From a virus, in IMG/VR virus record IMGVR_UViG_3300009034_000080, positions 1-44,002 of that record: a DNA stretch of 44,002 nucleotides. One strand, 5' to 3'. A model generated the notes under the pieces. That model was given only the letters and a program-made list of their open reading frames with translations, was not told where the DNA came from and did no database searches. How positions within the stretch are numbered: the first letter of the stretch is position 1; every line of letters starts with the position of its first letter. Shown here one piece after another: positions 6,345 to 43,934 of this stretch. The position numbers were made by a program, and so were the translations under genes.

Positions 6345-8738
6345 TTATCCAGCAACAACGTGCTTGTAGAACGGCCTGTAATCGAGGACCGCATAACCCC
6401 AAACGTGCCTGATCTTATATGTTATCTTGTCCGAGTTGAACACGGAACCGACGGTCGGCTGATCCTGAACGAAGAGTTCGGGCTCCTGCCTGCCGTTCCA
6501 GAATCCAACCTCGATGGTCGGGATCATCTTCGGATCAGCGACGGCCACCCAGTCTGTCGCGTCCGTCCAGTAGGAGACTTGTATGTATTCCACCCCGTAC
6601 TTCGCCCTGTGTATGTTCGGAATGGTCGCGTCCTTGTTGGAAGTCACAACCACTGGTGAGGCCGTGAGTTCCCACGCCTCGTCTTCCAGTTCCGGCGGGA
6701 CGATGATGTACTTAGGCGCGTTCACGACGCCCAGCCGCTCGGCGCTGATGCCATACGGTGACTGCTGCATCATCAGCTGGCGGGTAGCATTGAGCGCGTC
6801 GGAAGCGAGCGCCGTGGAGCCGAGGTTGCCGTGAGTGGCGTGGAAGAGTGTTACCGTGTCGTAGATAGCGGGGTTGTCCTTGAGTACATTGAAGATAGTT
6901 TGATAAAGAGTCAGCACGGCGGCCCGGCCCATCTTCTGCGGAATTCTTCGCAGAGCGCCGAGATCGTCGTTGGCTATCATCTCTATCGTCAAGTCCTCAA
7001 GCCCGCCTCTCTTCTGAACCTTGTACTTGGCTTCCTCGTCGGTGGGCGATGTCAGGCTTTGATAAGTATCTCTCTCACCAACCACATCGAGCAAACCGTA
7101 TCCGCCGTAACGGACTCTCGGGTTATCCCGGAAATCTTTTATGTTCCCGATGTCGGAAACAATCAGACGCCATGTGTTCAGGTTCTCAAGAGAGTATTCC
7201 CTGATCAACTGGCGATGAATCGAGTCGCCCAGAACCTGCGGCCAGTCGCTCGTAGCAAGAGACTCAAAAAGCTGCTTTCGTTTCCCTTCCGAGAGGAAGG
7301 TGGGAGCGAACTGCGCGGACTCAGCGAGTATGTCAGAGGGCTCAACATCCCTGCGGCCAGTGATAACTTCGAATGCATGGCGAATGCCCCTGAACGCGGG
7401 AACGCCTTCAATCTCCGACTCCTGCTGGAACATTGCGTCCATCGCTTTGTTCCACTTGTCCTTCTGCGATTCCGTTATTTCCGCCCTTGCGCTCGCCACA
7501 CCGGCTCCCTTCTGGTTGAAGAGCTCCGCGAGAACCTCGCGCTCGGTCTCTATGGTCTTCTTGGCGTCTTCTTCAGACATGCCTTCGCACTGGTTCGAGA
7601 GCTTCTTCTGAACAGCGGAAGGAAGACCGGACTCGGTCACGAGCGACCTCACCGCGTTTTTCCTTGCGGACTCGGTGACGTCGGTGAGGGTCTCCGCGCT
7701 CTTCTCGACCTGCTTGCTCAACTCCTCAATTTTCTTTGTGAGCTCAGCAACCTTTTCCGATTCTTGCGCTTCGGGTTTCGGTTTCGGTTCCGGATCCGGA
7801 TCCGGATCTGGATCCGACTCCTTCTCCTTTCGCTCTTCCTCTTCCTTCGCAGCTCGTCTCGGATAAGGGTATGGATACTTACCCACCGCCGGGTAAGGGT
7901 ACTTTGCGAGCTTCTGCAGCATGTCGTCTATCTGCGCGACCGCGTTGTCCATCTGCCCGTCTTTGATCAGATCACGGAGCGAACGCAGGAAAACTGAGAA
8001 GTTGACGGCGTTGGCCTCCTCTACCTTTCCGTTCTCTTCTATCAGTTTGTCCAGCAGTTCCGCAACCTTCGCCTCTTCCGAAAGCTCCTCTTCCTTCAGG
8101 GATTCGAAGAGCTCTTGGTCGAGGTAGCCACACAGCTTGTAAAGCTGTTTCCCAAAATCTGCCATTGAAAATCCTCCAGGTTTCCTTGAGGCCACCAACC
8201 GCATCACCTTGCCTCCGGCCGCTGGCGACGTGACTGCGGTCACCTCGTTTAACTTGTGCAACTCCAAAATCTTGCGGATCATTTTGCCTTGGTGCAGCAT
8301 GTCCGCGGATTCGCCTTCCCCGTCGATGGAGAAACCGATTATGTCAGGCTTGCCCACCTCCCATGCGTTGAGGAGCTTTATCCTGAACCACTCCTCAATC
8401 ACATTTAGATTCGCGGTCAGCCCTTCTCTGGATTGTCCCTGCCAATTGTACTTCTCGAACTGTACATTGTTGAAGAAGCCAACCAGATTCTTTGTGAGTC
8501 CTTCAGGTTGACTCTTCCGCACTTTCAAGGGCAGGTGATCGAACTTGCCCTCGAACTCGTAAGCGAAGCACTTGGCATCCTCGAACAAATGCTTCGCCCT
8601 GATCAAGACCGCCGCCGGGTAATAGCGGTCATTCAGGGACAGTCCAGCTTCAATCATCACGACTTTCCAAACTTTGCCCTTGCCACCTCCTTTCACAGGC
8701 TGAACTATTCTCGCGCCTTCCAAAAATTTTTCTATCAT
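6345..8738 (-). CDS. Prohead protease-scaffold-major capsid fusion
   Basis: This 797-aa polypeptide contains three parts normally seen as two or three genes. Residues about 1-190 resemble a phage prohead serine protease, with a candidate histidine in FDHLPLK (about 68) and serine in GFSIDGEG (about 137). Residues about 192-420 are a charged, coiled-coil scaffold with low-complexity linkers (YPYP repeats about 278-294; DPDPDPDPEPKPKP about 308-321). Residues about 420-797 look like a major capsid protein (RIPQKMGRAAVLTLYQTIF, YIIVPPELE, TIEVGFWNGRQEPELFVQ). The ATG at 8738 overlaps the upstream stop (ATGA). An in-frame start at 8165 with its own ribosome binding site could give a scaffold-capsid product alone. 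Maturation by self-cleavage is inferred. Confidence 0.82.
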   Translation of the reverse strand: MIEKFLEGARIVQPVKGGGKGKVWKVVMIEAGLSLNDRYYPAAVLIRAKHLFEDAKCFAYEFEGKFDHLPLKVRKSQPEGLTKNLVGFFNNVQFEKYNWQGQSREGLTANLNVIEEWFRIKLLNAWEVGKPDIIGFSIDGEGESADMLHQGKMIRKILELHKLNEVTAVTSPAAGGKVMRLVASRKPGGFSMADFGKQLYKLCGYLDQELFESLKEEELSEEAKVAELLDKLIEENGKVEEANAVNFSVFLRSLRDLIKDGQMDNAVAQIDDMLQKLAKYPYPAVGKYPYPYPRRAAKEEEERKEKESDPDPDPDPEPKPKPEAQESEKVAELTKKIEELSKQVEKSAETLTDVTESARKNAVRSLVTESGLPSAVQKKLSNQCEGMSEEDAKKTIETEREVLAELFNQKGAGVASARAEITESQKDKWNKAMDAMFQQESEIEGVPAFRGIRHAFEVITGRRDVEPSDILAESAQFAPTFLSEGKRKQLFESLATSDWPQVLGDSIHRQLIREYSLENLNTWRLIVSDIGNIKDFRDNPRVRYGGYGLLDVVGERDTYQSLTSPTDEEAKYKVQKRGGLEDLTIEMIANDDLGALRRIPQKMGRAAVLTLYQTIFNVLKDNPAIYDTVTLFHATHGNLGSTALASDALNATRQLMMQQSPYGISAERLGVVNAPKYIIVPPELEDEAWELTASPVVVTSNKDATIPNIHRAKYGVEYIQVSYWTDATDWVAVADPKMIPTIEVGFWNGRQEPELFVQDQPTVGSVFNSDKITYKIRHVWGYAVLDYRPFYKHVVAG
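7790..7817. repeat. GGATCC-type hexanucleotide repeat coding a DP linker
   Basis: About four tandem copies of a six-base unit (GGATCC with one C to T change) encode an Asp-Pro repeat in the scaffold part of the capsid fusion. A nearby stretch (7865-7905) encodes repeated YPYP. Both are probably flexible linkers. Confidence 0.6.
8163..8177 (-). promoter_or_regulatory. Internal ribosome binding site and ATG within the protease-capsid gene
   Basis: On the minus strand GGAGG (8173-8177) precedes an in-frame ATG (8163-8165) by 7 nt. The sequence is CTGGAGGATTTTCAATG. It falls exactly where the protease part ends and the scaffold begins, as in lambda C/Nu3, and would give a 606-aa product. Confidence 0.65.
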
Positions 8739-11700
8739 TTCTCTTCTCCCGGAGCCGGTTTGCTTCTCGCCACTTTCCAGAAATCGGCGGTCGGGCTTTC
8801 CCTCTCGAAAGTCCAAACGCCCTTGAACTTTTCCCCCTTGAACCGAATCTTCATGAATACCGGAGTTTTTTCCAACAGCGTCATTTCGCCTTCATCAATA
8901 CTCTCAATCCATGAGCCGCGCTCCTTGTGCGGGTTGCCGACCTGTCCGGGAACGATAAACCCTTCGGCCTTTTCGTCATGATCGTATTCCGGCGCTGAAA
9001 AATGGCCTGATATGACTTCGGCTTCCAACGGGTCCAAGTCGAGTTCGAAATGCTGCTTCTTTCCGTCAAGCAGGAACAGGTCGAAATGCCACTCCGTCGC
9101 CCCTGCCCTTTTCTTCTCACCGACTTTGGAATACCAGTGGTATTTCAAGGCGAAATTCTTGTTTGCCGCCTCCTGAACGGGGATTTTGATCTCGTCTTTC
9201 TTTATCAGTTCGACAAGCTCGTCCCGAATTAGCAGCGCCTCTTTCGCGGTTTTGGCATTCCAGTATCTCAGAGGCTCCGGTATCGCTTTTCGAATTTCTC
9301 TCGGAAGCGCCGATTTGCCCAAAGGCGGCAGTCGCTTCTTCTTGACTGCCTCGTCTGAAAGGATGTAGGGCATCTGCACCACGGGCTTGATGGCGAACCA
9401 TCGAACCCCAATCGTTTTCTCTTCTGAGGGCGGTAGGATTTTCTGTTCGAGAAGAGGGCATATCTCCCGCTTGACTTCCACCACGAAGCTATCGTCGAAG
9501 TATTTCTGCGGCAGCGCCTCCAGCAGTTCGTGTTTGATGCCCTCCCGCTCCAACTCTTCATCCATTAGAGACTCCGCCAGCATCAAAAGTCTCTTCTCGG
9601 TCTGGCTCAGTTCTCTTGATTCCCCGAATTCTTCAGCGCGTAATTGTCTGAACACCACCCTGTAGTTCAGACCTTTGCCGTGGAAAAAATACTCATGTGA
9701 CCAAGGCTGCTGAAAGCCGTACTCCGCAGTGCCTTTATCAGTGATCACAAATACACCAGGGTAACGTTTCGTCGCTCCGACTTCGCCCGGCTCCACAACG
9801 CCTTGGAAGTCAAGCCATTCAATCGGCTCGGGCGCTTTCTTCTGTGTCATGATGGTCACGTTGACGGGTTTCACCGCACCTTTCTTCAGGCGCTGCGCCC
9901 ACTCGCCGGTCTTCCAGTTGATCTTGAAATACTTACCGGGGTTCCTTTCCTTCTCCCGCGCATCCTGTAGAGTCAGCACGGGTTCCTTCACCACTCCTTT
10001 AATGAGATCATTCAGCGTCCACCCAATCAGGGTTTCCTTCTCCACGCTCTCCATCCGCAAATCCGCATGGCAGCTCTTGCCCCGCCAGTGGTGCTGTGCA
10101 ACGAACTTGTAAGTCTTTTTCTCGTCAGGATAGCGTAGATAAGGGTCTTCCTGCTCCGCTAATAAAATTTCCTGCACCCTGTTTCCCGCAATCGTTTTTG
10201 CGTATGCGGGGTTGCGAATGCGGCGGAAATAATGAACCCTGCTCTTCGTCACGTTCGCTTTGAATTTCTTGACTTCGGACTCCCAATCCGTTTGGTCGTT
10301 AGTGCAGACGACTATGGTACTGCATTTATTAGCCAACTTACCCAAGAGACTGACTATTTGCTCCCGAGTCGGTTCCTTTTGTCTAAATTCTTTTTGCAGC
10401 AGTACGGAGTTGCGAGTTTTGTATTCGGTGAATATCCTGCTGTAAGGCGAACCGCCTGCCTGCGGAGGGTCGAAGAAGATCACGTCGGCCTCGGGAATCT
10501 GCATCTTGAATGCATCATTGCAAGTTACTATGCCCTTGCCGCCCACCTGCTCGACCAGCCTGTTTACTTCCGAGATGGAAGCCCTGAGCATTTGTCTGCA
10601 TTTGTCCTTGTCGTAATAATAGTAGTACGCATCGCGCATACTTGAGTGCCTGCCACCGAAGAACCTGCCGAGAAATGCAACCGCGACTGCGCGGGCAGTA
10701 AGCATCTTCTTTCCGCTGAAACAAGATTCGATATGCAGCATCAAACCGTCCACCCACTCGCGTATGGATTTCGAAACGGGGTGCATCGCTTTGTGCTGGT
10801 TGGTAAACCATCCACGCTTTTCCTTTACGGCCAGCAGAGCGTCGACATCTTCCGCGTTGAGAATTTCACCCTCGAAGATGCCCTTCGAGAACCTGTAGGC
10901 GTAAGGATTGACGTCGTTGGCGGTCACCTTGAGTCCCTTGCGGGCGGCGGCCATCAAAACGGCACTCGTGCCACACATTGGATCAAATATGGTTTTCGCC
11001 GTTGCGGGTAGCCTATTGACAATCGCGTTTGCGAAAGGCCTCTTGCTGAAGGAATAGGCGACTTCCTGAATTTCTTCGTTGGAGGCTTCGATGACTTCGA
11101 AACTTTTCGACTCAAGCAGTTTCAGGTTCTTTATGATTACCTGCGGGCCCCGTATATATTGGTAGCGCCGGGGTTTGTGCCACGGCCAGAACTTGACGAC
11201 GTCGTATGCCCACAACTCTCTCTTGTCAGGCCACCACTTCTTACGTTCCGCATCCGATATTCGATGCTTGTTCCTGAGCGTCTCGAATTCCTTCAAGCTG
11301 ATTTTATATGCGGGTCCGAGCCTGATTGTGCCGTACACCAAATCGGAAGCCAGGAACAGCACCTTGTTGAGCGCATCGAACTCTTTCGACTTCACGACTA
11401 TTTTCTTTTCGCCGTTGTAAATGAGTTCGCCGTGCGGCGGAGTTAAATACATCGCGTCCTTGACGGCGTGGGTATTAACCGAGAGCAAGTCGCCGTCCTT
11501 GGGTATGATTATCTCCTTGTTCGGAAATGCGGTTTCAAGCAATCCAAGTATTTTACGATCATCCATCTCGACGGGTCCCTTGCCCTGATGGATGAAGACG
11601 GCCGTGTGGATCCCTTGGTTCTGACACCACTGGAGCTGTTGCTTCATGGACGCATGCCCGACTCGCTCCTCTTCCGGTCCAGTTCGAAAAATGGGCCTCG

Positions 11701-13933
11701 TTACTCCGGAGCCGTCGCCCACGTAAATATCGACATCCTTGAGTTCCTCTTCTTTTATTTCCGCAACGTTGGGGAAGAATCCGATGACGTACTTGTTCTC
11801 ATCGGCAGCGATGGAGATCTTGTAGCCGACCGTGGGAGCGACGGTTGAAAGCTTGACTTTCACGACTTCCAGCTTGACGCCTTCGACAACCGGGTACACC
11901 CCTCCCGGGCGGATTATCTTGCGCTCCTTCATCGGATACTTTTCGGGCGAAAGCTTCTCGGAGGTTTCTTTCGTCATGTAGACGGGAACGCTGATTTCTT
12001 CGCCCTCGAGCCCTTTCACATGGTCGGGGTGTGCGTGCGTCAAGGCGATCCATTTGGGCCGCAACTTGGCGAGCTTTCCCCTCAGGTTTTCTCCGAAGTC
12101 CAACAACCCCTGAGAGCCGTCATATTTGACCAGCATACCCGAGTGGAATTCGTGCCCCTCGGCTTTCTCCTCTATCATGCCGCGGGTGCCCAAGAAGACG
12201 AGGTCGACTCCCGAAAAGGATTCCGAGAAGTTCTGCCTGCCCTTCTTCCGGCCCAGCAATCCCGCATCCTTCGCTATCGCCTCCGCCTCTGCAATCGAAC
12301 TCGGCTCCTTCCGCTCCGGCACTTTCCCGTCGAAGACCGGTTCGTAGAACCGCCCGCTTTTGAATCCCGTTTCCGGGTCTTCGTAAATGTTGAAGGTGTG
12401 GAAGGTCACTCTGAAGACGTCGCCGGGGTTCAGCTTCTCGGTCGTGGCATAGGAAGTTCCCGATTTCGAATACTGCTCGCCTTTGATTTCGATCTTGGCC
12501 TTCGGGTCCAACTGTTCTTTGGGCACTCGAATGGCGTAATCGTAGTTGTACACCCCCTTTGTGGCGGTCTCGTTGCGGCGGTAGACGATTCCGAAGGCCG
12601 ATGCGTATTTCTTTATCTTCGACATGACCGTTGAAGTGCCCGCCAGAGAATACTTGCCGTCCACCTGCTTCACGATAGCGCCTTCGGAACCCTCCGCCTT
12701 GACTACCTTCTCCAGGTGCTTCTTGAGTTCCGCGGGCGTTCGGGCGACCAAGCTCGGGGCTCTGTTGAGCATGGATTTTGTTTTCGTGAACCCGAGTTCC
12801 GATTTCGCAAATGGGAATTCATCAAGAAGCTTCTTCCGCTCGATCCAAGACCTCTCATGAAGGTCTTCGCCATCCTGCCACAGGATTTCGAAGACATTGG
12901 CCACCACCCATTGCTCGTCGATAGGCTCCTTGCCGAGCAGCAAACCCGCGAGCTCTTCCCGCGGCTGATGTTCACCATCGAGCCAGTATTCCAGTTCGGA
13001 ATCAATTATGAAAGAGGTGGGCTTCTTAATCGCTTCCAGTTCCGCCACAAGTTGAGGGAGCCTGTCCGTCACGTCCGAGGCCCCGTCCGTATATGCCTTC
13101 GCCTTCTCGCCGTCTTTGAACATCACGATTCTGAGGCCGTCGTACTTCTCCTCGACGACCAGCGGAAGCAAGTCCTTGATTTCCTCTACTGTTCCGTCGA
13201 ACCGCCAGTCGTTTTCGAAATCTTTCCGCAACACGACCGCGGGGAGCGAAGTCTTCAATGAGTAGAAGAAACGGAACATCTTCAACTCATCTTCTTTCTT
13301 GGACTGCTCCGCCTGCCTCAGTGTGGTTTCCTTCTCAACCTTTTCTGCAGCAAGTATCACGCTCATCTCAGGGTTGATGCGCTCGAACTTCTGGCGGTAG
13401 AGGGGGATGGCATCCGTGAAGGGGCCGTGGTAGGTGTCGTAGCAGAACTGCAGCCTCCCCCGCACGTTCGCGTTCCTGAACTGCCGTTCGATTCGGAACT
13501 CTATCGGTCGACGGATTGCCAAAGGTGTGTCTTCAGGCAGGCGAATCAGGAAATCGACGTCGTTGGCCGATTCGCCGTTGTTGACGATGCCTCCGGTCAG
13601 GTAGACAGTGACGTCCTGGGTGTAGAAATCTTTGAATTCGGGCAAGTCCTCGAGCGTGATCAGATTCCCTTCCGTCCTTTCACCCAATGGGTGAATGGGC
13701 GCGAGCGCTTCCTTGATGCTGATGGGCGAGGCGTGCTCGTCTTTCTTCTCAGCTTCCCGCCTTACTAATTCCGACACCACCAAGTCGTGAACTTTCTTCA
13801 CGAGCTGAATGTCCAAAGACTTGTCCGCCTTCTTCCAGCCGTTGAAGAGCAGGTGGGTGCGGAAATGAAGCCCGGACAGTTCTTCCCTGTCGACTTTCCT
13901 CAATCGCTCCGCTGTGACATCAACGAGTTTCAT
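8735..13933 (-). CDS. 1732-aa fusion: nucleotidyltransferase-like, DNA ligase, MBL, methyltransferase, two phosphoesterase-like domains
   Basis: Seen in order: residues 100-185 have GG (114-115) and DVD (125-127) as in Pol-beta-type nucleotidyltransferases. Residues 225-540 are an ATP-dependent DNA ligase with KYDGLR (K263 as adenylation lysine), DSELE, FEILW, EGAIVK (417-422) and SKIKKY, then an OB-like part. Residues 575-825 are a metallo-beta-lactamase fold with HAHPDH (633-638), D740, H760 and H782. Residues 935-1260 are a methyltransferase with DPMCGTS (984-990) and DPPQ (1155-1158) in place of the common DPPY. Residues 1272-1432 and 1592-1712 resemble the LigD 3'-phosphoesterase (HADLR at 1289; WHFDLF at 1615; final GVWTFERE). 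It is coupled to both neighbours (TAATG, ATGA). DNA end repair or virion-borne processing is inference. Confidence 0.85.
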   Translation of the reverse strand: MKLVDVTAERLRKVDREELSGLHFRTHLLFNGWKKADKSLDIQLVKKVHDLVVSELVRREAEKKDEHASPISIKEALAPIHPLGERTEGNLITLEDLPEFKDFYTQDVTVYLTGGIVNNGESANDVDFLIRLPEDTPLAIRRPIEFRIERQFRNANVRGRLQFCYDTYHGPFTDAIPLYRQKFERINPEMSVILAAEKVEKETTLRQAEQSKKEDELKMFRFFYSLKTSLPAVVLRKDFENDWRFDGTVEEIKDLLPLVVEEKYDGLRIVMFKDGEKAKAYTDGASDVTDRLPQLVAELEAIKKPTSFIIDSELEYWLDGEHQPREELAGLLLGKEPIDEQWVVANVFEILWQDGEDLHERSWIERKKLLDEFPFAKSELGFTKTKSMLNRAPSLVARTPAELKKHLEKVVKAEGSEGAIVKQVDGKYSLAGTSTVMSKIKKYASAFGIVYRRNETATKGVYNYDYAIRVPKEQLDPKAKIEIKGEQYSKSGTSYATTEKLNPGDVFRVTFHTFNIYEDPETGFKSGRFYEPVFDGKVPERKEPSSIAEAEAIAKDAGLLGRKKGRQNFSESFSGVDLVFLGTRGMIEEKAEGHEFHSGMLVKYDGSQGLLDFGENLRGKLAKLRPKWIALTHAHPDHVKGLEGEEISVPVYMTKETSEKLSPEKYPMKERKIIRPGGVYPVVEGVKLEVVKVKLSTVAPTVGYKISIAADENKYVIGFFPNVAEIKEEELKDVDIYVGDGSGVTRPIFRTGPEEERVGHASMKQQLQWCQNQGIHTAVFIHQGKGPVEMDDRKILGLLETAFPNKEIIIPKDGDLLSVNTHAVKDAMYLTPPHGELIYNGEKKIVVKSKEFDALNKVLFLASDLVYGTIRLGPAYKISLKEFETLRNKHRISDAERKKWWPDKRELWAYDVVKFWPWHKPRRYQYIRGPQVIIKNLKLLESKSFEVIEASNEEIQEVAYSFSKRPFANAIVNRLPATAKTIFDPMCGTSAVLMAAARKGLKVTANDVNPYAYRFSKGIFEGEILNAEDVDALLAVKEKRGWFTNQHKAMHPVSKSIREWVDGLMLHIESCFSGKKMLTARAVAVAFLGRFFGGRHSSMRDAYYYYYDKDKCRQMLRASISEVNRLVEQVGGKGIVTCNDAFKMQIPEADVIFFDPPQAGGSPYSRIFTEYKTRNSVLLQKEFRQKEPTREQIVSLLGKLANKCSTIVVCTNDQTDWESEVKKFKANVTKSRVHYFRRIRNPAYAKTIAGNRVQEILLAEQEDPYLRYPDEKKTYKFVAQHHWRGKSCHADLRMESVEKETLIGWTLNDLIKGVVKEPVLTLQDAREKERNPGKYFKINWKTGEWAQRLKKGAVKPVNVTIMTQKKAPEPIEWLDFQGVVEPGEVGATKRYPGVFVITDKGTAEYGFQQPWSHEYFFHGKGLNYRVVFRQLRAEEFGESRELSQTEKRLLMLAESLMDEELEREGIKHELLEALPQKYFDDSFVVEVKREICPLLEQKILPPSEEKTIGVRWFAIKPVVQMPYILSDEAVKKKRLPPLGKSALPREIRKAIPEPLRYWNAKTAKEALLIRDELVELIKKDEIKIPVQEAANKNFALKYHWYSKVGEKKRAGATEWHFDLFLLDGKKQHFELDLDPLEAEVISGHFSAPEYDHDEKAEGFIVPGQVGNPHKERGSWIESIDEGEMTLLEKTPVFMKIRFKGEKFKGVWTFERESPTADFWKVARSKPAPGEEK

Positions 13934-14262
13934 TAAACCCTCGGGATTCTTATCTTCTTGGCGTCGATAGTTACCAGAACGAATTCATCCGCTTTCACGG
14001 CATGTGTGAAAATCTTGTCGGGTGTCAAATCCGCTATTTCAATGGCCTCTTCCAAGGTCGTGGCCGCGGTTTTCTTTGGCGCTGCTGGTGTCTCCTCTTT
14101 CACTTCTGGTTCCGGTTCCGGTGCTGGCTCCTCTCCGTCAACTTCCACGCTCGCCTCTTCTTTTGGCTCGGGTTCTGGTGTGGTAACAGTCTCTTCCACT
14201 TCGATCGCTTCCTCCACCGCCTCACACTTCTCGGGGTCCCATGCTAATCTCTTGTCGTCCAT
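13933..14262 (-). CDS. Small acidic Pro/Glu-rich protein of the head cassette
   Basis: The 109-aa product has a long acidic linker (VEEAIEVEETVTTPEPEPKE and APEPEPEVKEE) followed by a short folded-looking C-terminus (EEAIEIADLTPDKIFTHAVK, DEFVLVTIDAKKIRIPRV). The ATG at 14262 has GGGAGGAATA upstream and overlaps the preceding stop; a longer frame to 14301 is not supported. Both junctions are TAATG, so it is translated between the minor head protein and the giant enzyme. Function unknown; it could be a tether for the giant protein, but nothing in the sequence proves that. Confidence 0.6.
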   Translation of the reverse strand: MDDKRLAWDPEKCEAVEEAIEVEETVTTPEPEPKEEASVEVDGEEPAPEPEPEVKEETPAAPKKTAATTLEEAIEIADLTPDKIFTHAVKADEFVLVTIDAKKIRIPRV

Positions 14263-15155
14263 TATTCCTCCCATTCCGGGTGCAGGTACATCACCCTGCA
14301 CCTGCAGTTGATCACCTGCTCCGGCGGCCCGCCCGGGTCGCCGGGAAATTCCAAAGCAGCGCCACCCACAATAAAAGGCTCCTCGATTGGAATTGGATTG
14401 TCAGGCCCGAACTCCACGCCCGCATCGGCATGGGACGGCCGCACCCTCTCATCTCCCGCCGTCAGCCACCACTTTCGCAATCCCGGTCTTTTCTTTTCAA
14501 CCTGCTCTGCCCTCTGAGCGGTTCCGACCGAGAACGCCCTGTTGACTTCCGTGTTGAGAATGGTCTCCGCGCGGAAGCCCGTACCGATCAGCCTTCCTTT
14601 CCGGCGAACCGGCGACACCCACTTTTCTATTTCGTCTATAGCTTCTTCGGGGCGTTTCACGCCCAAAGCAACTTGCCCGATTTCCGTGTTGATTTTTTTG
14701 CGCGCCTCTTCTGCTACCTCAGAAATCAGATCTGCTGAAAAAGACCGCAGCAGAACCAACTGCTCCTTCGTCAATGCGGGCAGAGGCGGCAGCTTCACCT
14801 TGAACTCCGCCGCCAGCGCCTTGGGAATCTTACCGCCCATCGCGTATGCCTTTTCCTGCTGTACGCTCACCGTGTCAAGCAGCCTTTCCTCGAAATCCCG
14901 CAGGTGCTTCTCGACGTCGGCCTTCAGCGCCCTCAGAGAGCGGGCGCGGTATCTCTTTGCGTCGACCATTTCGCCGCTGATCCTCTTTCCGAGCGTCTTC
15001 AAGAACCGAATCGCTTTTTTCAGCGCGTCCTTCGTCAGCTCGTCCACTTCCTTCGTGGCCCGCTTAACGCGGCGCTTGAACGCCGCCCTTCGCTTCTCTA
15101 CTTCTTTTTTCTCTAACTGCTCAAGAAGCAAAATTACGCAACCTCTTTGCCGCAC
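14262..15155 (-). CDS. SPP1 gp7-like minor head protein
   Basis: The 297-aa protein has the C-terminal signature of the Mu F / SPP1 gp7 family: WWLTAGDERVRPSHADAGV, a PGDPGGPPEQ turn and NCRCR. The first 150 residues are charged helices. These proteins bind the portal and few copies enter the head. The start is uncertain: GTG at 15155 overlaps the portal gene, and a TTG at 15131 has AGAGG about 10 nt upstream. The C-terminus is followed directly by the acidic protein. Confidence 0.85.
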   Translation of the reverse strand: MRQRGCVILLLEQLEKKEVEKRRAAFKRRVKRATKEVDELTKDALKKAIRFLKTLGKRISGEMVDAKRYRARSLRALKADVEKHLRDFEERLLDTVSVQQEKAYAMGGKIPKALAAEFKVKLPPLPALTKEQLVLLRSFSADLISEVAEEARKKINTEIGQVALGVKRPEEAIDEIEKWVSPVRRKGRLIGTGFRAETILNTEVNRAFSVGTAQRAEQVEKKRPGLRKWWLTAGDERVRPSHADAGVEFGPDNPIPIEEPFIVGGAALEFPGDPGGPPEQVINCRCRVMYLHPEWEE

Positions 15156-16467
15156 GGAAATAATTGTCCGAGGCCGTTGGCATCCCTTCGGGCTTTTCTT
15201 TCTTGAATCTCTCGAGCTCGAACCCGAACTGCCCCATCATAAAGTTGAAGAAGGCCGCCGCAGTCTCGTCTTCCACCCAGTCGTTCTCCCGGGCGATCAT
15301 CAGAGCGTTGGTCACCTTCACGAGGAAGTCCGCCTGCTGCGGCAAGTCCCTTTTCAACGAAGCGATGTTTATCGAGAACGAAGTGTTGACATCTTCGGGA
15401 AGTACCTTGTGGAGAATCGCCTGATCGATGACGAACTGGAATATTCGGCGGAACATGTGCTTGAAGAACTTCTGCCTGGTGCTGAGGCGCTTCAGCGTCG
15501 GCACCGACATCTCACCCGCGGTCGCTTTGTTTGTGAATCCGCCTTCGGACATCCAAGTCTCGGGCGTGCCCGCGCCGGTCAGGATGTGCTGACGGATCAT
15601 GCGGGCCTCTTCCATCGCGTCCGAGGCTTTGAACTCCGGGACTATGGCGTTCCAAGTCACTTTCTCGTTGTGGGCGCGGATGGAGCCGGGTTTGGGCTTG
15701 CGGTTCTTCTCCAAGAAGTCTTTGATCTCTTGCGGGCCTGCACCGTCGAGCATGACGTCCCATATGTGCATGTTCCGGAGTTGCGCGTTTTCCAACCGCG
15801 TGTACAGGAATTCGTCGTAGCCCTCGATCCAATCAATCAGCGCCAGAACGTCCGAGTGGCCCCGTGTCGCATTGGTCACCTTGTTGACGGTGAAGAAGAA
15901 GGCGTCGCCCGTCAGCCTTCCGAAAGAGTCGCTGTACGGATTCTCATCGCGCCGGATGACAACCAACTCTTCCTTCTCGGAAACCTGCCCGTTCTGTTTC
16001 AGAACCAGTTTGTCTGGCACGTTTGCGTTTCTGGGAAGGGGCTTGACTTGCTGAATCTGTAGGGAATCCACCGTTTCCAACCTGACCGCCCCGTTGAAGG
16101 GGTTCACGGTCGGCACGTAGGCCTGCTCGCCGTTAAGAGCAAGTTCAAGCGCCATGTTGAACTGGCGGAGATCCATGTTGTTAATCTCATCATCCCAGAA
16201 ATTCTGCAGCACTTTCTGCACCCCGGGATCGACGGCCTTGAACGAAATCCCGTCTCCGACCGCGAAATCCTTCGAGAGCTCTATCAGCCGGAAGCAAAGC
16301 GGGTTGCTGAGGTACAGGTAGTATGCTATCTTCAGGTGCCTTTCCCAGAGGTAGGGCAGCAAGTCCTTTTCCACCTTGCCCAGCCTGCGGTAAAGGTGTT
16401 CGTCCTTGTCTATCAATTCCCCGAACTCGGCGTCCTGCTCCCGGAGGCCCGTTTCGGATTCCGCCAT
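15121..16467 (-). CDS. Portal protein
   Basis: The protein is about 448 aa, right for a portal, and lies between terminase and the minor head protein. It has the typical pattern: N-terminal helices, YYLYLSNPLCFRLIELSKDF, then WDDEINN and LALNGEQAYVP, and the late helical region with TGAGTPETWMSEGG. The portal ring forms the DNA channel and the packaging motor dock. I prefer ATG 16467 (AGGATTAAGAAAATG) over the TTG at 16494, which sits right against GGAG with no spacing. The 3' end overlaps the next gene. Confidence 0.87.
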   Translation of the reverse strand: MAESETGLREQDAEFGELIDKDEHLYRRLGKVEKDLLPYLWERHLKIAYYLYLSNPLCFRLIELSKDFAVGDGISFKAVDPGVQKVLQNFWDDEINNMDLRQFNMALELALNGEQAYVPTVNPFNGAVRLETVDSLQIQQVKPLPRNANVPDKLVLKQNGQVSEKEELVVIRRDENPYSDSFGRLTGDAFFFTVNKVTNATRGHSDVLALIDWIEGYDEFLYTRLENAQLRNMHIWDVMLDGAGPQEIKDFLEKNRKPKPGSIRAHNEKVTWNAIVPEFKASDAMEEARMIRQHILTGAGTPETWMSEGGFTNKATAGEMSVPTLKRLSTRQKFFKHMFRRIFQFVIDQAILHKVLPEDVNTSFSINIASLKRDLPQQADFLVKVTNALMIARENDWVEDETAAAFFNFMMGQFGFELERFKKEKPEGMPTASDNYFRAAKRLRNFAS

Positions 16468-16497
16468 TTTCTTAATCCTGCCCGCCACCCGCAACTC

Positions 16498-16836: not shown

Positions 16837-18043
16837 CTTCCACCTCTACCTTGTATTCGTTCGTGATTTCCATCTCCGTCTCAATCTCCGGATCAAGTGC
16901 CGCTTCCACGTTCAATTCGTTTTCGACCTCCACGGCAACTTCAATCCACTTCTTGGGAATCTCTTCGACGATTGCCCCAATGAAGGTCACGGAGGTGAGG
17001 GTCGGCCGGTCTGCACCGCCGGAATTCATTTGCGCCCTGAGGAAATAATACCTGTGCCCGTCGACGGCGCCGCTCGCCAAGAATGTGTCCATCTCCGCCA
17101 CCGAGCGCCATGTGCCGTCCCATGTCGCGTTCCCTTCCGTGGGGGCGCCGCCATCGTAATACCCTATCTTGAACTTCACCGTGGAAGTGCCCGGTTCCGA
17201 GACCACCGCCGAGAAACCCGTGAAGCTGAAGGTGGCTCCGGCTCCCGCATCCAAAGCGTAGTCGACCGCGCCGTCGTCTGAGATTAGAAATTCGGGCGAA
17301 TCATCCCAGAACCGCTCTTCCGCGCCCGCAATCTGGTCGTAGAAGTCAACGTCGGGGTTGAAGCCCACGCTATTGGTGTAAACCGAGATTAGCGGATAGA
17401 GGAGATGGGTTTTGTCGAATGTTGCTCCCGTAATAACAGCTGGACCCCAAAGCGAAATCCAATTCGCGGGGTCGCCGCCATACTTCGCAATCGGGTTGAC
17501 AATTGCATACCAGAGCTGGAAGGTTTGTTGCGCGCCCGAGATGTCGCGCTTGATGCGGAACCATATGTCCGCTTGCGCATCAATAAACGATATTACCAAG
17601 GGGTTTGCCGCCCCCGCGATAACCGAGTATGCAGCCGCATTTCTCAACGCATGGTCGTAACACACGAAAACGGTGTTGCCTTGCGAACGCCATAGATGCA
17701 AATAGTTAGACCTTACCTTATCGCCTATGTAGTTGAGAAAGCTGAAGTAACAAACTACTTCTGCATCCTCGTAACTGACATCCCTCCGCGAACCGCCCGA
17801 CCAAGGAATGGCGGATCCGTTGTCGTTCCAATGGTGCAGACCCGCGCTTTCCGAAATGGTCGCGGTTTTGAGGGTAGGCCACGCCACCCACATCTCCGTG
17901 CCCGACAGTCTCGTCCACTCGGAATAGACTTCCCCGAACACATCCGCATCGGGCGCAAGCTTTGCGACACCCGCGTCGACGACGACCTTGTAGTTGTTGT
18001 CAACCGCCGCGATTTTGAAGTTGTCCACAAGGAAGTTGGCCAT
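16826..18043 (-). CDS. Adhesin-like structural protein, possible head fibre
   Basis: The 405-aa protein is aromatic- and glycine-rich and beta-predicted. Residues about 30-210 (FWLRIKRD-like strands, DADVFGEVYSEW, SAGLHHWNDNG, ADIWFRIKRDISGAQQTFQLWY) resemble a concanavalin/LamG-like sandwich. Residues about 265-365 look like a second beta domain (STVKFKIGYYDGG, GHRYYFLRAQM). The C-terminus is a run of alternating charged strands (VEVAVEVENELNVEAALDPE). It starts with ATG at 18043, overlapping the terminase stop. It could bind host or environmental glycans from the capsid; no enzymatic motif is visible. Confidence 0.55.
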   Translation of the reverse strand: MANFLVDNFKIAAVDNNYKVVVDAGVAKLAPDADVFGEVYSEWTRLSGTEMWVAWPTLKTATISESAGLHHWNDNGSAIPWSGGSRRDVSYEDAEVVCYFSFLNYIGDKVRSNYLHLWRSQGNTVFVCYDHALRNAAAYSVIAGAANPLVISFIDAQADIWFRIKRDISGAQQTFQLWYAIVNPIAKYGGDPANWISLWGPAVITGATFDKTHLLYPLISVYTNSVGFNPDVDFYDQIAGAEERFWDDSPEFLISDDGAVDYALDAGAGATFSFTGFSAVVSEPGTSTVKFKIGYYDGGAPTEGNATWDGTWRSVAEMDTFLASGAVDGHRYYFLRAQMNSGGADRPTLTSVTFIGAIVEEIPKKWIEVAVEVENELNVEAALDPEIETEMEITNEYKVEVEVVS

Positions 18044-19824
18044 TACGCCCCGCCCCCCTTGAACAATGATCGCCCCGTACCGACGCTCCCGAATAGCTGT
18101 CCCTTGTCCCTGTTTCTGCCCATCAACCGTATCTTCAGCCGCGCTCTTTTCTCATCCGGGTCGGCGTCTCCGTCCGCGTCGTCGCTTCCGAACGCGGCGC
18201 TCGCGTTCCCGGAATCCAGGAATTCGAATCCGTATCTCGTCGCGTCGCCCGCGTGAATCTCCTTGTTCTTTAAGGGAACCTCCGACGTGGGCCTGCCTTC
18301 GGGATCGACGGGGTAGCGGGTCTCCTGCAGGTAGCCGAGGAGATGCTTGCATCGCGGATGTACGAGAACCTTGGGCTCGTCCTCCACCAAGTCTTCCAGC
18401 GCCGCGTTCATCAGCATCAATCCGTGCGGTATGGGGTTCTTGCGGGGCGTGCGAATCCTGACGCCCTTCTTGCGAAGCATCGTCACGTCGCTCTCGCCTA
18501 TGACTTCGTGCGTCTGCTTCCCCGCGATGTCGCCCACGTCGATCCAGCCGCCCGCGGGAATATAGGGTTTGGCGTTCACCACGTCCGCGACGTCCTCTAT
18601 TTTGGTGAACGTGAACCAGGACTCGTCGAAGAACCTCAGCTGGCCCGTCACGGGATGCCGCTGCGCGTACTCCACGCACGTCGCGCCGCTCCATCCGAAG
18701 TCCCAGAACCTGTATGCCGGGGTTTGAAGGTTCCACGTCGGATCGAACTCCGCCGTTTTACTCTTGTGGATCCGCTCGTTGAACGCCGGGAAAGTGTAGC
18801 CGCTCAACGACACCCTGTTGCACAGCCAGACAGTCTTGAACTCGTCGAGGGGCAGCATCTTGAATTTGCGTATCACGCCGTCGATTTCGTAGTAGCCTCT
18901 CGATCTGCGCGCCTTGCCCTTGCAGATGTCGCGCCAGCTCACGATCTCCCCGTCCGCGCCCATCTTGACAATCTTCTTGCACGCGTTGCACGACTTTTTC
19001 CTGCAGCGCTTCATGACCTCGAAGATGCACCACTTGTAAACCTTTATCCCGCGCTCCGCGGCGTTCTTGAGAAGGCCGGTCATGATGCCGAAGCGCTTGT
19101 GATGGGTGGAGGTCATGCCTATGGATGCCTTGATGCCGGCAAAAGAGCGGGTGGTGCTGAGGGACTGCCTGAAGACTATCGGGTCGAACTCCTCTATTTC
19201 GTCGAGGCACAGCTTCTGGGGATGCTGCCCCAGCACCGACTTGGAGGACTGCGTGAGAATCGACACCTGCGACCCGTTCCGGAACTTCATGCTCTTCGCC
19301 TGCAGATCCTTCACCGCGGCGGAACATGCGGGGATGGTCATGAAGAGTTGGGAGTACTCGTAGACCCGCTTGGACTGTTCTTCCGAGCCCCCGAGGATTT
19401 TGCTCTGGCACTTGGGCCGGGTGGCCGAAGTTAGGAAAAGGAGGAAGGCGTCGCCCATCGTCTTGTAGCCGTGCCTGTTGGCGAAGCCGAGCCAGTCCCC
19501 GGCCTCTTCGAAGTAAACCTCCGCGAAGGCGTCGAACGGCGCTACGTGCCCTTCGCACACCGCCTTGTCGGGAATGCGCGGGAGCCCCGTGTAGTCGGCC
19601 ATCGCCCAGCAGACGCTTCGGAGCCTGTCCTTCGTTTGGATTCCCTTGGCTAATGCGGATGCGATAATCGTGTTGAGCCTCTTCTCCTCGTCGGTCATGT
19701 ATTCAACCGTTTCGGAAGCGGGTAGCCCGAATCTTTCGGCGTATTGTTTTCTCTGCTCCGGAGGCAGCAGTTCGGCAAGCCTGTCTATCTCGCGTAACTT
19801 GTTGATTGAACGCGTCTTAGGCAC
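18043..19824 (-). CDS. terL: Terminase large subunit
   Basis: The 593-aa protein has a degenerate Walker A (NRHGYKTM, about 117-124), a Walker B with LCLDEIEEF, and the nuclease-like pair FWDFGWSGAT and IDVGDIAG, so it fits the motor plus nuclease layout. A cysteine cluster (CRKKSCNACKK) about 290-300 probably binds zinc. It cuts concatemeric DNA and pumps it through the portal. The start is a GTG with GGAG 11 nt upstream, preceded by a non-coding region of about 335 nt. The C-terminus is acidic, then basic. Confidence 0.88.
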   Translation of the reverse strand: MPKTRSINKLREIDRLAELLPPEQRKQYAERFGLPASETVEYMTDEEKRLNTIIASALAKGIQTKDRLRSVCWAMADYTGLPRIPDKAVCEGHVAPFDAFAEVYFEEAGDWLGFANRHGYKTMGDAFLLFLTSATRPKCQSKILGGSEEQSKRVYEYSQLFMTIPACSAAVKDLQAKSMKFRNGSQVSILTQSSKSVLGQHPQKLCLDEIEEFDPIVFRQSLSTTRSFAGIKASIGMTSTHHKRFGIMTGLLKNAAERGIKVYKWCIFEVMKRCRKKSCNACKKIVKMGADGEIVSWRDICKGKARRSRGYYEIDGVIRKFKMLPLDEFKTVWLCNRVSLSGYTFPAFNERIHKSKTAEFDPTWNLQTPAYRFWDFGWSGATCVEYAQRHPVTGQLRFFDESWFTFTKIEDVADVVNAKPYIPAGGWIDVGDIAGKQTHEVIGESDVTMLRKKGVRIRTPRKNPIPHGLMLMNAALEDLVEDEPKVLVHPRCKHLLGYLQETRYPVDPEGRPTSEVPLKNKEIHAGDATRYGFEFLDSGNASAAFGSDDADGDADPDEKRARLKIRLMGRNRDKGQLFGSVGTGRSLFKGGGA

Positions 19825-40844: not shown

Positions 40845-42571
40845 ATCTTCACTTCCTCCTTCTCGCTCCACCTCTCCTGGCTAATCTTGCACTCGACTTT
40901 GAGCGGCACCGAGAACTGTGGGAAATCTTCCATCAAGTCTCTTATGCCTCGCAGAATTCCTTTCTTGTCTTTGAGCACTTTCGGGATTTCGATTACCAGC
41001 TCATCGTGTATTGGGAATATCAAACGCGCATCCGCCCCGACCTTTTCTAAGTAACTATGGATGCGAACCTGCGCCCGCTTGATGATGTCCGCGCCCGTGC
41101 CTTGAATCAGATAATTGACGCCCACGTAAGGTTTGTTCGGGTTGACTTTGATTTTTCTTCCGAACTCCGTCGTAACGCTTCCTTGAGAGCGCACCTGCGC
41201 GGTCAAGCGCTTGGCCATCGTTCTCGCTCTCGGAAATCTCGCATCGTAATCTTTCAGCCTCATGCGCATCTCGCCTTCGCCCAGACCCAACACCTGCGCG
41301 ACTTTGCGAGCGCCCGCCCCGTATCCGAGAGCGAAGTTGGCGTTCTTGGCCGCATCCCTATACCGTTTCTTGGCCGCTTTGGTCTTGCCGTAGAAAACGA
41401 CGGCGGCTTCGTAGTGCGCATCTCCGTTCGCGAGCAGTATTCTTCGGAACTCTTCATCTTTGTGGTAGTGCACAAGAAGTCTCAACTCTTCGCCCGCGTA
41501 GTCGAAATGGTAGTTCTCGTATCCCTCCCTGGGCGTGAACAGCCTGCGCGCGGCGACCGGGTATGGGTTCAACAGGACTTGCTCTTTCGAGACGTTCATC
41601 AGGTTCGGGGTAGTGCACGCCTGCCGCCCGGTGTCCGCGCCCGTCAGGAGTATGTTGGGGTGTATGATATTGTCTTCGCCCGCGAAATCCAAGTAACCCC
41701 TTATGATTGGAATGGCTTTCGAGTAGCTTCGGTATTTCAACAACGTGTTTATTATCTTGTGCTTGCCTCTCAGTTGCAGCAAGACCGGCTTGCCGGTGCT
41801 CGGCTTGCCAGTCGGCGTTCTTTGCAGCACGGGAAGATGAAGATTGTCGAACAGAATCCGGGCGAGTTGCGGATGCGAGTCAACGTCGAACCGTCCGCCC
41901 GCATACGCCCAGAGAAGATGCTCCAACCGCTTGCAATCCTGCGCAAGCTGTTCGAGCATTTTCTCCGTGGCTTCGGGGTTGAGGCGCACGCCCCGCTTTT
42001 CCATAGCCATTGTCGGCCTTATCAGTGCTATTTCCGTATTGTAGGCGTCGAACGCCCCTTTGTCTTTCTGTATCTCCTTCCACCAGAGAAGGAACAGCAG
42101 CATCGTCCGCTCCGCGTCGTTGGCAGCGTACTCGTCCATCTCGTCTTGGGGCACTTTCGAGTAATCCACGCCGTGACCCTTGACGGCGACTTCGTCCTCC
42201 CTCGTGTACCCGCACAGCACCCAGCAGATGTGCTTCAGGGCGTGGGAGTGCGCGAGATTCTGGAGGATTCTGGACATGGCGAGCGTGTCGTGGATTTCGC
42301 CTTTCATTCTCCTTCCGAGAAAGCGCTCGGTGAAAGTCAAGTCGAACTTGGCGTTGTGGAATATTTTCGCCGTGTTTTCGTCGAGCCAGAGGTTTTTGAG
42401 TTTGCGCGTGTTCAACAAACGCCGGGTTTTCGGGCCGTCGATCCTGCGGGCGGACTTGAGTCCCTCGGTCGTGCAGGTGGAGTAGCAGAACATCCGGTCG
42501 CCGTCGTAGGGGCGGAGGCCCGTCGTTTCGGTGTCGTATGCTATGTACTGTTTACCTGAAGAGGTCTTCAA
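40841..42571 (-). CDS. Family A DNA polymerase with 3'-5' exonuclease
   Basis: The 576-aa protein has exonuclease motifs YDTETTGL (about 12-19), FHNAKFDLTF and YAANDAERT, then polymerase motif A FDYAGEELRLL (in place of DYSQIELRLL), motif B AAKNANFALGYGAG and motif C IHDELVIE. There is no 5' nuclease domain. It is the replicative polymerase and probably uses the phage clamp. TTG start at 42571, overlapping the methyltransferase gene by 20 nt; its ribosome binding site is weak, so translational coupling is likely. Confidence 0.9.
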   Translation of the reverse strand: MKTSSGKQYIAYDTETTGLRPYDGDRMFCYSTCTTEGLKSARRIDGPKTRRLLNTRKLKNLWLDENTAKIFHNAKFDLTFTERFLGRRMKGEIHDTLAMSRILQNLAHSHALKHICWVLCGYTREDEVAVKGHGVDYSKVPQDEMDEYAANDAERTMLLFLLWWKEIQKDKGAFDAYNTEIALIRPTMAMEKRGVRLNPEATEKMLEQLAQDCKRLEHLLWAYAGGRFDVDSHPQLARILFDNLHLPVLQRTPTGKPSTGKPVLLQLRGKHKIINTLLKYRSYSKAIPIIRGYLDFAGEDNIIHPNILLTGADTGRQACTTPNLMNVSKEQVLLNPYPVAARRLFTPREGYENYHFDYAGEELRLLVHYHKDEEFRRILLANGDAHYEAAVVFYGKTKAAKKRYRDAAKNANFALGYGAGARKVAQVLGLGEGEMRMRLKDYDARFPRARTMAKRLTAQVRSQGSVTTEFGRKIKVNPNKPYVGVNYLIQGTGADIIKRAQVRIHSYLEKVGADARLIFPIHDELVIEIPKVLKDKKGILRGIRDLMEDFPQFSVPLKVECKISQERWSEKEEVKI

Positions 42572-43934
42572 AGTATTTCACCCGCGCTTTCGCAATCTTC
42601 ACGTATTCTTCCGATAGCTCGATTCCGATGCTATTGCGTCTCAGCATGACAGCTGCGCACAGTGTCGTGCCCGAACCCACGAAGGGGTCGAGGATGGTGT
42701 CGAATTTCCTTGAGCCGAGCGTTATTAAATAAGACATCAGTTTGATGGGTTTGCATGTGGGGTGGAAATTATGGCGTGGTTTTCCGAGAGGTGAAGTTCT
42801 ACCAACAGCAGGCTTGCTTCGTGCAGTAGCAGGAGGTTCACCTAAAGGTAAGAGTCCACATCCAAGGTTCTTTTCCTTCTTGGACGGCTTGGGAACCAGC
42901 AGGAAGGGGAACGTCTTTCGCCCGCTTTCGGGAAGTTCCTTGAGCTTCTCGGCGAACCAGGAGTCGAGGGAGAAGAAGCGACTGAAGGAGCCAGAAGATG
43001 CTTCACAAGTAGAACCAAGATTGGTCTGCCCGCTTAAAAATCCTTCTTTCATTTTCGATTTTTCAAGAGTATCTTGAGAGACTCGCCCCGATTTGTGATT
43101 CTTACTATCATCCAAGACATCATCACTCACCAGCAGGTTCGCCGGGAAGCGTCCTTGCGAGCTGTAAAACCCCTCATCCTGTCTTGCTCTTGTCCCAGTT
43201 GTTCTATGCATCTTGAATCCTGACCTATCTTGATGGAATTTGTGTTTCTTGGCGTTTGGACGATAACCTGGTTCGCTTTTCAAATCAAAGATAGGAATCT
43301 TACAATCGTCCAACCACGTCACGCCCTTCCCGTTCTTCAACGCTTGGTCTACGAAGGTTTTCTCCGAGAGCGGTTTCATCGCAACAATGATTTCCTCAAC
43401 CGCAGGTTTTGGCTGAAATCCGCCGAATGCGCCGTTAAGTACTTGGGCATCAGGATGTGTAAGCTTGTCGAAGTGTTCGTGATGCTTTGTCACGTTGTAA
43501 CCCTTATCAGGCGTCATGCCTCCGCAGCCTTTGACTTCTTCAACTGAATCGGGCTTTCGATGTCTCTTTTCGATTGCCTTTGCTACGTTTCCCGCTTTCG
43601 GAAATCCACTTGCATAAGCCCAATAGATAGGCGTGAAGTTTATCCGGAACCCCGCCTCCTCCAGCCGCGCCATCATCCTCCAGCTCAAATCGGCGCGAGG
43701 CAGGGACATTACGAAAGCGAACGCGCCCGGCTTGAGAACTCGCAGGCATTCCTTCCAGACCTTCTCGGATGGCATCGCCGCATCCCAGTCTTTGCCCATG
43801 AACTTGGCTCCGTAAGGAGGATCCGTAAGAACCAAATCCACACTCTCCGACGGAATATCTTTCAAGACCTCGAGGCAATCCCCGCGCAGGATCTTTGTCG
43901 TCACTTTTCTCGGCGGCGCTTGTTTCTTCGCCAA
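42552..43934 (-). CDS. Beta-class DNA methyltransferase (N4-C or N6-A)
   Basis: The 460-aa protein has LRGDCLEVLKDIPSESVDLVLTD-type start with DPPYG (about 38-42), then late HPTCKPIKLMSYLI and DPFVGSGTT (motif I), the order of beta-class enzymes. The middle (130-330) is long and charged, likely the target-recognition part. It may protect phage DNA from restriction or mark it. TTG start with GAGGAAGAC upstream. HPTCKP here keeps the motif that the second methyltransferase lost to an amber codon. Confidence 0.85.
   Translation of the reverse strand: MAKKQAPPRKVTTKILRGDCLEVLKDIPSESVDLVLTDPPYGAKFMGKDWDAAMPSEKVWKECLRVLKPGAFAFVMSLPRADLSWRMMARLEEAGFRINFTPIYWAYASGFPKAGNVAKAIEKRHRKPDSVEEVKGCGGMTPDKGYNVTKHHEHFDKLTHPDAQVLNGAFGGFQPKPAVEEIIVAMKPLSEKTFVDQALKNGKGVTWLDDCKIPIFDLKSEPGYRPNAKKHKFHQDRSGFKMHRTTGTRARQDEGFYSSQGRFPANLLVSDDVLDDSKNHKSGRVSQDTLEKSKMKEGFLSGQTNLGSTCEASSGSFSRFFSLDSWFAEKLKELPESGRKTFPFLLVPKPSKKEKNLGCGLLPLGEPPATARSKPAVGRTSPLGKPRHNFHPTCKPIKLMSYLITLGSRKFDTILDPFVGSGTTLCAAVMLRRNSIGIELSEEYVKIAKARVKYFEDLFR

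Follow-up and report, generated by a model that had tools for sequence, protein, structure and literature searches.

What is an ATP-dependent DNA ligase doing among the genes for a virion head? We examined this question in the window, by which we mean the whole 44,002-nucleotide stretch of DNA analysed here, which covers almost all of a 44-kb IMG/VR virus record (IMGVR_UViG_3300009034_000080). On its minus strand, where the neighbouring genes and all the domains described below also lie, a single frame without internal stops (8735..13933) starts with ATG and encodes a giant polyvalent protein of 1732 aa, exactly as the original prediction had it. Upstream are genes for a probable terminase large subunit (18043..19824, a partly weak match), a portal protein (15121..16494) and a MuF-type minor head protein (14262..15155), followed by an ORF of 122 aa (13933..14301). 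Downstream is a gene for a head protease-scaffold-major capsid fusion (6345..8738), whose true start is 8738 and not 8816. The start of the ligase gene overlaps the stop of the 122-aa ORF in a TAATG (13935-13931), and its own stop overlaps the ATG of the protease-capsid gene in an ATGA (8738-8735). Because of these two overlaps, translation of the ligase gene is very probably coupled to the ORFs on both sides. The gene had been placed between the minor head protein and the capsid gene and coupled to both; the overlaps are real, but the upstream partner is the 122-aa ORF, which stands between the MuF gene and the ligase gene. Proteins with the same domain order and 53-55% identity to the window protein come from two independent assemblies (1745 aa in L005, 2011 aa in L006), so the giant gene is not an assembly artefact.

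The protein begins with a helical module (residues 1-66; 13736..13933) in which alignments reveal an LHxRxH...HDLxVxExxRR motif; a similar motif is visible in the aligned relatives L012, L015-L017, L025 and L026. The next region (residues 70-215; 13289..13726) had been read as nucleotidyltransferase-like. Its sequence score is weak (NTP_transf_2, E 0.009), and the reading was upheld by the fold of a relative: in an AlphaFold2 model of L007 covering the NTase and the segment before the methyltransferase (mean pLDDT 71), the NTase resembles MNT/HI0073 folds with a modest score (Z 5.9 to 1no5). Backed by a GG...D-x-D motif that is invariant in 29 relatives, this modest score supports assignment of the region as a minimal, MNT-like nucleotidyltransferase. 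The window protein keeps the motif, as GG(x)9-13DxD, and lacks the third carboxylate, having R180 where others have D. The ATP-dependent ligase adenylation domain follows (residues 245-450; 12584..13201), with a Pfam DNA_ligase_A_M match over residues 258-441 (E 2.8e-22) and the predicted K263 as the lysine of a KYDG motif. Ligase motifs I, III, IIIa, IV and V are conserved, and K263, E313, R325, R366, E417 and K439 are invariant among the relatives described below, in 36 of the 36 covered diverse members and in 49 of the 49 halovirus-like members. By position, conservation and analogy with other ligases, residues 450-570 (12224..12586) are assigned as the OB-fold part of the enzyme.

Three modules lie between the ligase and the C-terminal region. 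The first is a metallo-beta-lactamase-fold (MBL) hydrolase (residues 575-845; 11399..12211), which carries HAHPDH (633-638), DG, GHAS and H motifs and matches Pfam Lactamase_B_2 over residues 627-782 (E 2e-9), in agreement with the earlier call. The second, which that call had missed, is an ASCH (PUA-like) domain (residues 845-955; 11069..11401). A profile search of this segment against the PDB returned no usable match, and the assignment was settled by the folded relative: the L007 model matched the ASCH fold with a Foldseek probability of 1.0, and the Zymomonas ASCH protein 5guq with a Z of 8.7. Their likeness is one of fold; the viral ASCH differs in being a module of a polyprotein or fused to portal proteins. 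The third is a D12/Dam-type methyltransferase (residues 955-1262; 10148..11071), likewise as expected, with a MethyltransfD12 match over residues 963-1160 (E 3e-10) and the motifs DPMCGT (984-989) and DPPQ (1155-1158). The latter, motif IV, departs from the [DNS]PP[YFW] pattern, with DPPQ instead of DPPY; relatives have DPPM (L005), DPPN (L006) or DPPY (L007 and L021). L006 (8001-14033) encodes two D12 domains in tandem, the extra one matching Pfam at E 6e-18. The window also contains a separate N6_N4 DNA methylase gene (42552-43934, E 1e-29) beside the gene for PolA.

The C-terminal 471 aa (residues 1262-1732) had been proposed to hold two regions like the LigD 3'-phosphoesterase (PE), and both stand, the first by profiles and the second by fold. 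They are PE1 (residues 1262-1436; 9626..10150) and PE2 (residues 1591-1732; 8738..9163), separated by a linker (residues 1437-1590; 9164..9625). In an AlphaFold2 model of this region (mean pLDDT 81), all six Foldseek matches at E <= 0.001 were LigD PEs (E 3.7e-6 to 1.5e-4); the structure-comparison list is taken up by PE2 and contains no separate PE1 match. A structural aligner placed residues 1591-1726 on the archaeal LigD PE 3p43 over 117 residues (Z 15.2, rmsd 2.4), the next unrelated row having a Z of only 4.4. PE1 was instead assigned from sequence profiles: Pfam LigD_N matched 14 of 26 relatives at this position (best E 1.5e-4), and the only PDB chains found with the PE1 profile were LigD PEs. 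A search of the BFVD structures gave no match at E <= 0.001. The HxRGxxxHxDxR motif of PE1 (H1282, H1289, D1291, R1293) is kept in most members. Residues H84 and Y88 of the LigD PE, which we take to be the His/Tyr pair of its second half, have no counterparts in PE1, whose active site is altered in part; in place of the pair, PE1 carries a family-specific GxQKxxxHEY signature (H1413-E-Y in the window). PE2 of the window keeps H1599, H1616, D1618 and H1652, and is degenerate in ANMV-1 and several other members. Segment by segment, profile and structure checks support the folds claimed for the non-ligase parts, with ASCH as an addition.

The conservation of residues in the ligase and PE1, as against the motif losses in the NTase, methyltransferase and PE2, makes the former two the best candidates for active enzymes, and the other three may be altered or inactive. 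These losses, together with the position of the gene in the head module, would also suit a structural head-core protein made from former enzymes. We think this very improbable, given that the catalytic residues of the ligase do not vary among the covered members of either group of relatives.

An ATP ligase joined to a 3'-phosphoesterase domain recalls LigD and the split archaeal NHEJ system, which combine PE, LIG and POL with Ku, and the viral PE fold best matches the archaeal PEs 3p43, 3p4h and 5dmp. The viral protein differs in several respects: no Ku or POL was found, it has an MNT-like NTase, two PEs and extra MBL, ASCH and methyltransferase modules, and it is encoded in a viral head operon. 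Ku was absent from the window record, as had been noted, and from all 15 viral records searched with a positive control that worked, records that may be incomplete and whose hosts could still provide Ku. Scans of Pfam and NCBIfam gave no match to the primase-polymerase (AEP) POL domain, the only other nucleotidyl-transfer domain being the MNT-like one. Since neither the POL domain nor Ku was found, the viral protein is not a LigD, yet by analogy it may work like part of one, healing 3' ends and then sealing them.

How widespread is this arrangement? We searched viral contigs with an alignment of the core and took the best 80 of 323 encoding stretches; the same search of archaeal MAGs yielded six contigs (Methanophagales, Methanosarcinales, Archaeoglobales and Euryarchaeota). 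The survey suggested along with the original prediction found, among the matches listed, related genes in about 35 diverse viral loci and 49 halovirus-like contigs, most of them at the same place. The diverse loci encode an NTase-LIG-OB-PE1-PE2 core and include that of ANMV-1, a virus of methanotrophic archaea. The statement that no described system has the exact order of domains needs qualification: the order occurs also in L005 and, with a second D12, in L006, and the smaller core is widespread. The MBL, ASCH and D12 modules are exchangeable among core loci, where they may be present, absent or moved. An MBL-ASCH pair is N-terminal in L015-L017, L026 and L030, D12 is placed between the NTase and the ligase in L013, and in L026 and L030-L032 the core is divided between separate LIG and PE genes.

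The ANMV-1 protein annotated as "ATP-dependent DNA ligase" (KP703175.1, AJP62006.1) is a true member of this family, with the complete core and an adjoining portal gene; it differs from the window protein in having 868 aa and no MBL, ASCH or methyltransferase, and is undiscussed in the ANMV-1 paper. Its neighbour annotated as a "MutT-like phage hydrolase" (L004 1913-3193, KP703175.1) proves to be a portal protein by its match to a PHROG portal family (E 2e-30), and directly after the ligase gene is one for a 1166-aa protein (L004 5868-9368) with cysteine repeats of EGF-like appearance and a MuF-like C-terminus. Elsewhere, the N-terminal extension of L014 (4270-5910) resembles pyrimidine dimer glycosylase of the T4 type weakly, at an E of 4e-4 that falls slightly short of the Pfam cut-off. 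In L033 (8424-13840), L089 (620-6916) and L019 (2-10565), the ligase gene is broken, within or between domains, by 2-7 kb with other ORFs; introns were considered as the cause of these splits and gave no Rfam match.

The proteins of the halovirus-like group consist of LIG and a PE-related C-terminus, and are mostly about 840 aa long (about 700 aa in L034-L038). Profile-profile comparison relates their C-terminus to PE with a probability of 95.6 and an E of 1.2e-8, over just 40 columns, and the GxQKxxxHEY signature is the only PE signature that it keeps. Together with the altered motifs of PE1, PE2, the NTase and the methyltransferase, this loss suggests, at the level of sequence, that some domains may be inactive. 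The portal, protease and capsid proteins of the tested member resemble those of haloviruses. Magroviruses have halovirus-like head proteins (PMC10160649), and we infer that these 49 contigs are magroviruses.

The position of the ligase gene is conserved in both groups. In the diverse group, a terminase or portal gene lies upstream, and a head-protease homologue lies just downstream, no further than 1-3 small ORFs away, in 18 loci by one profile; related profiles add L014, for about 19 in all. In the halovirus-like group, the protease is directly downstream in 48 of 49 contigs, the remaining one ending at the ligase; a major capsid protein gene is found in 39 of these loci and a portal gene in 37. 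Altogether, about 67 loci among the matches listed retain a head protease beside the ligase, and the neighbours match many differing portal and capsid PHROG families. We had considered whether the low-scoring matches L034-L083 were ordinary ligases outside head modules; these too adjoin the head protease. Microcystis phage Mae-JY22 has a 36% identical protease-capsid fusion in the same neighbourhood and a slot without a ligase, and the ligase is therefore best seen as an accessory gene inserted at a fixed site. Between the portal and protease genes of HVTV-1, an archaeal virus, this slot is occupied by other large proteins of polyvalent type (L118 4230-12564, genes 113 and 115), one of 1048 aa with a zincin-like HExxH and one of 1313 aa annotated as a zeta toxin, whose C-terminus looks ART-like on inspection. 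They were rejected as homologues, having no LIG, PE or NTase match.

Two further observations link the family to virion proteins. First, ORFs of L023, L027, L028, L033 and L087 end in ASCH modules that match the window ASCH in single-sequence searches (E 1e-11 to 4e-16); the ASCH-bearing ORFs that were scanned (L023, L027 and L087) are portal proteins by PHROG, with E down to 1e-22. Second, a single frame of L007 runs without interruption through both PE2 and the protease (leave-one-out E 1e-32 for the latter); an internal Met in it could allow separate initiation, and a frameshift may account for the break before PE2.

Could the protein simply be the replicative ligase of the virus, misplaced among late genes? 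No other ATP ligase is encoded in the 44-kb window record, and magrovirus papers file "DNA ligase" under replication (PMC10160649). The replication genes of the window virus are bacterial in type (PolA, a DnaG-like primase, a beta clamp and a delta'-like clamp loader), and neither PolB nor TBP was found in the window record. Three relatives of 90-96 kb (L049, L050 and L055), however, encode a second, conventional ligase of 515-520 aa, which is separated from the head-module ligase by 39-51 kb and from PolB by 8-9 kb. This second ligase and the retention of the other at the head protease mostly refute a replicative role, to which we give very little weight.

The location of the gene is better compared with that of phage polyvalent proteins, which also join unlike enzymes in one large polypeptide and are encoded beside portal, MuF and capsid genes (PMC5512222). 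A site by virion genes is typical of them and late-gene location a hallmark, and their known domains include Pol-beta NTases and methylases (Iyer et al. 2017, PMC5512222). The main text of that study names neither DNA ligase nor LigD PE as a domain, and describes archaeal cases, those of more than 1000 aa included, as rare. We found no description of a head-encoded LigD-like viral protein in the freely accessible literature searched. The single parts are of known kinds; a LigD-like repair protein without Ku and with a link to virion assembly appears to be undescribed.

On balance, we lean slightly towards the view that the window protein is a polyvalent, head-associated DNA end-healing and sealing protein built on the NTase-ligase-OB-PE1-PE2 core, made late, situated at the portal or in the head, and acting on ejection or packaging. 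Its gene, coupled to those for MuF and portal at one end and to those for head protease and capsid at the other, would be expressed late in infection as part of the head operon, and the protein would come to lie at the portal or within the head. During ejection (or packaging) of the genome, it would heal and then seal DNA ends, with PE clearing 3'-phosphate or 3'-ribonucleotide blocks and the ligase sealing nicks or closing ends. The exchangeable modules (MBL hydrolase, ASCH, D12 methyltransferase and the glycosylase-like extension) might act on this same DNA, either processing it or shielding it, from restriction for example. We infer its packaging into the virion, its substrate and time of action, and the activity of the NTase, MBL, methyltransferase and PE2. 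That dozens of distant viruses have the same ligase gene in the same place suggests that the protein is loaded with viral DNA to mend or protect it. Because a repair enzyme is kept in the head operon while a second ligase is kept for replication, delivery with the genome is the most economical reading. The earlier proposal of a virion-borne protein acting on DNA ends thereby gains comparative support, from its position across unrelated head modules, the ASCH-portal fusion and the second ligase of some genomes, with its presence in the virion still conjectural; the suggestion that it attacks host DNA found no specific support.

By itself, the position of the gene would also fit action at the packaging motor, with no packaging into the virion. 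This is the main rival: the protein would act in the producing cell only, repairing nicks, gaps and blocked ends of concatemers at the procapsid portal so that packaging does not stall. The same position evidence and the portal-ASCH fusion speak for it, and a repair enzyme would be equally useful before packaging and after ejection. Against this, the size of the protein and its exchangeable modules (MBL, ASCH, D12 and the second D12 of L006) are more like those of delivered polyvalent proteins, and we regard repair confined to packaging as rather unlikely. A delivered protein might also be an injected anti-defence effector, whose ligase, PE and methyltransferase undo or prevent nuclease damage by the host to incoming DNA and whose MBL and ASCH act on defence nucleotides or RNA. 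The recurrence of D12 at differing positions (L006, L011, L013 and L021), as in the polyvalent proteins of PMC5512222, would agree with this, but no defence target was identified, the window methyltransferase has DPPQ, and the core that is always kept is one of repair and not of defence. We therefore find an anti-defence role improbable.

Extending head-associated end healing and sealing to the family, we propose tentatively, and with a little less assurance than for the window protein, that tailed viruses of a widespread class, with archaeal and bacterial hosts, may pack a Ku-independent LigD-like end-repair enzyme of their own into the head, at the portal, for delivery with the genome; healing and sealing of the DNA ends would then precede viral gene expression. 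If true, viruses of archaea, and probably those of bacteria too, would possess a DNA end-joining toolkit without Ku, tied to virion assembly. The "replication ligases" of marine archaeal viruses and the nameless ligase of ANMV-1 would thereby acquire a function and a new location. The proposal is also a testable one on what accompanies viral DNA into the cell, and it offers biochemistry a new natural ligase-phosphoesterase.

A minor feature of the downstream gene is an odd YPYP(A)V..YPYP motif (KYPYPAVGKYPYPYP) common to the linkers of the protease/scaffold proteins of the window (6345-8738) and L003 (3221-4588); a linker motif of the same type also occurs in L007 (YPKPYPYPQAGKYP).
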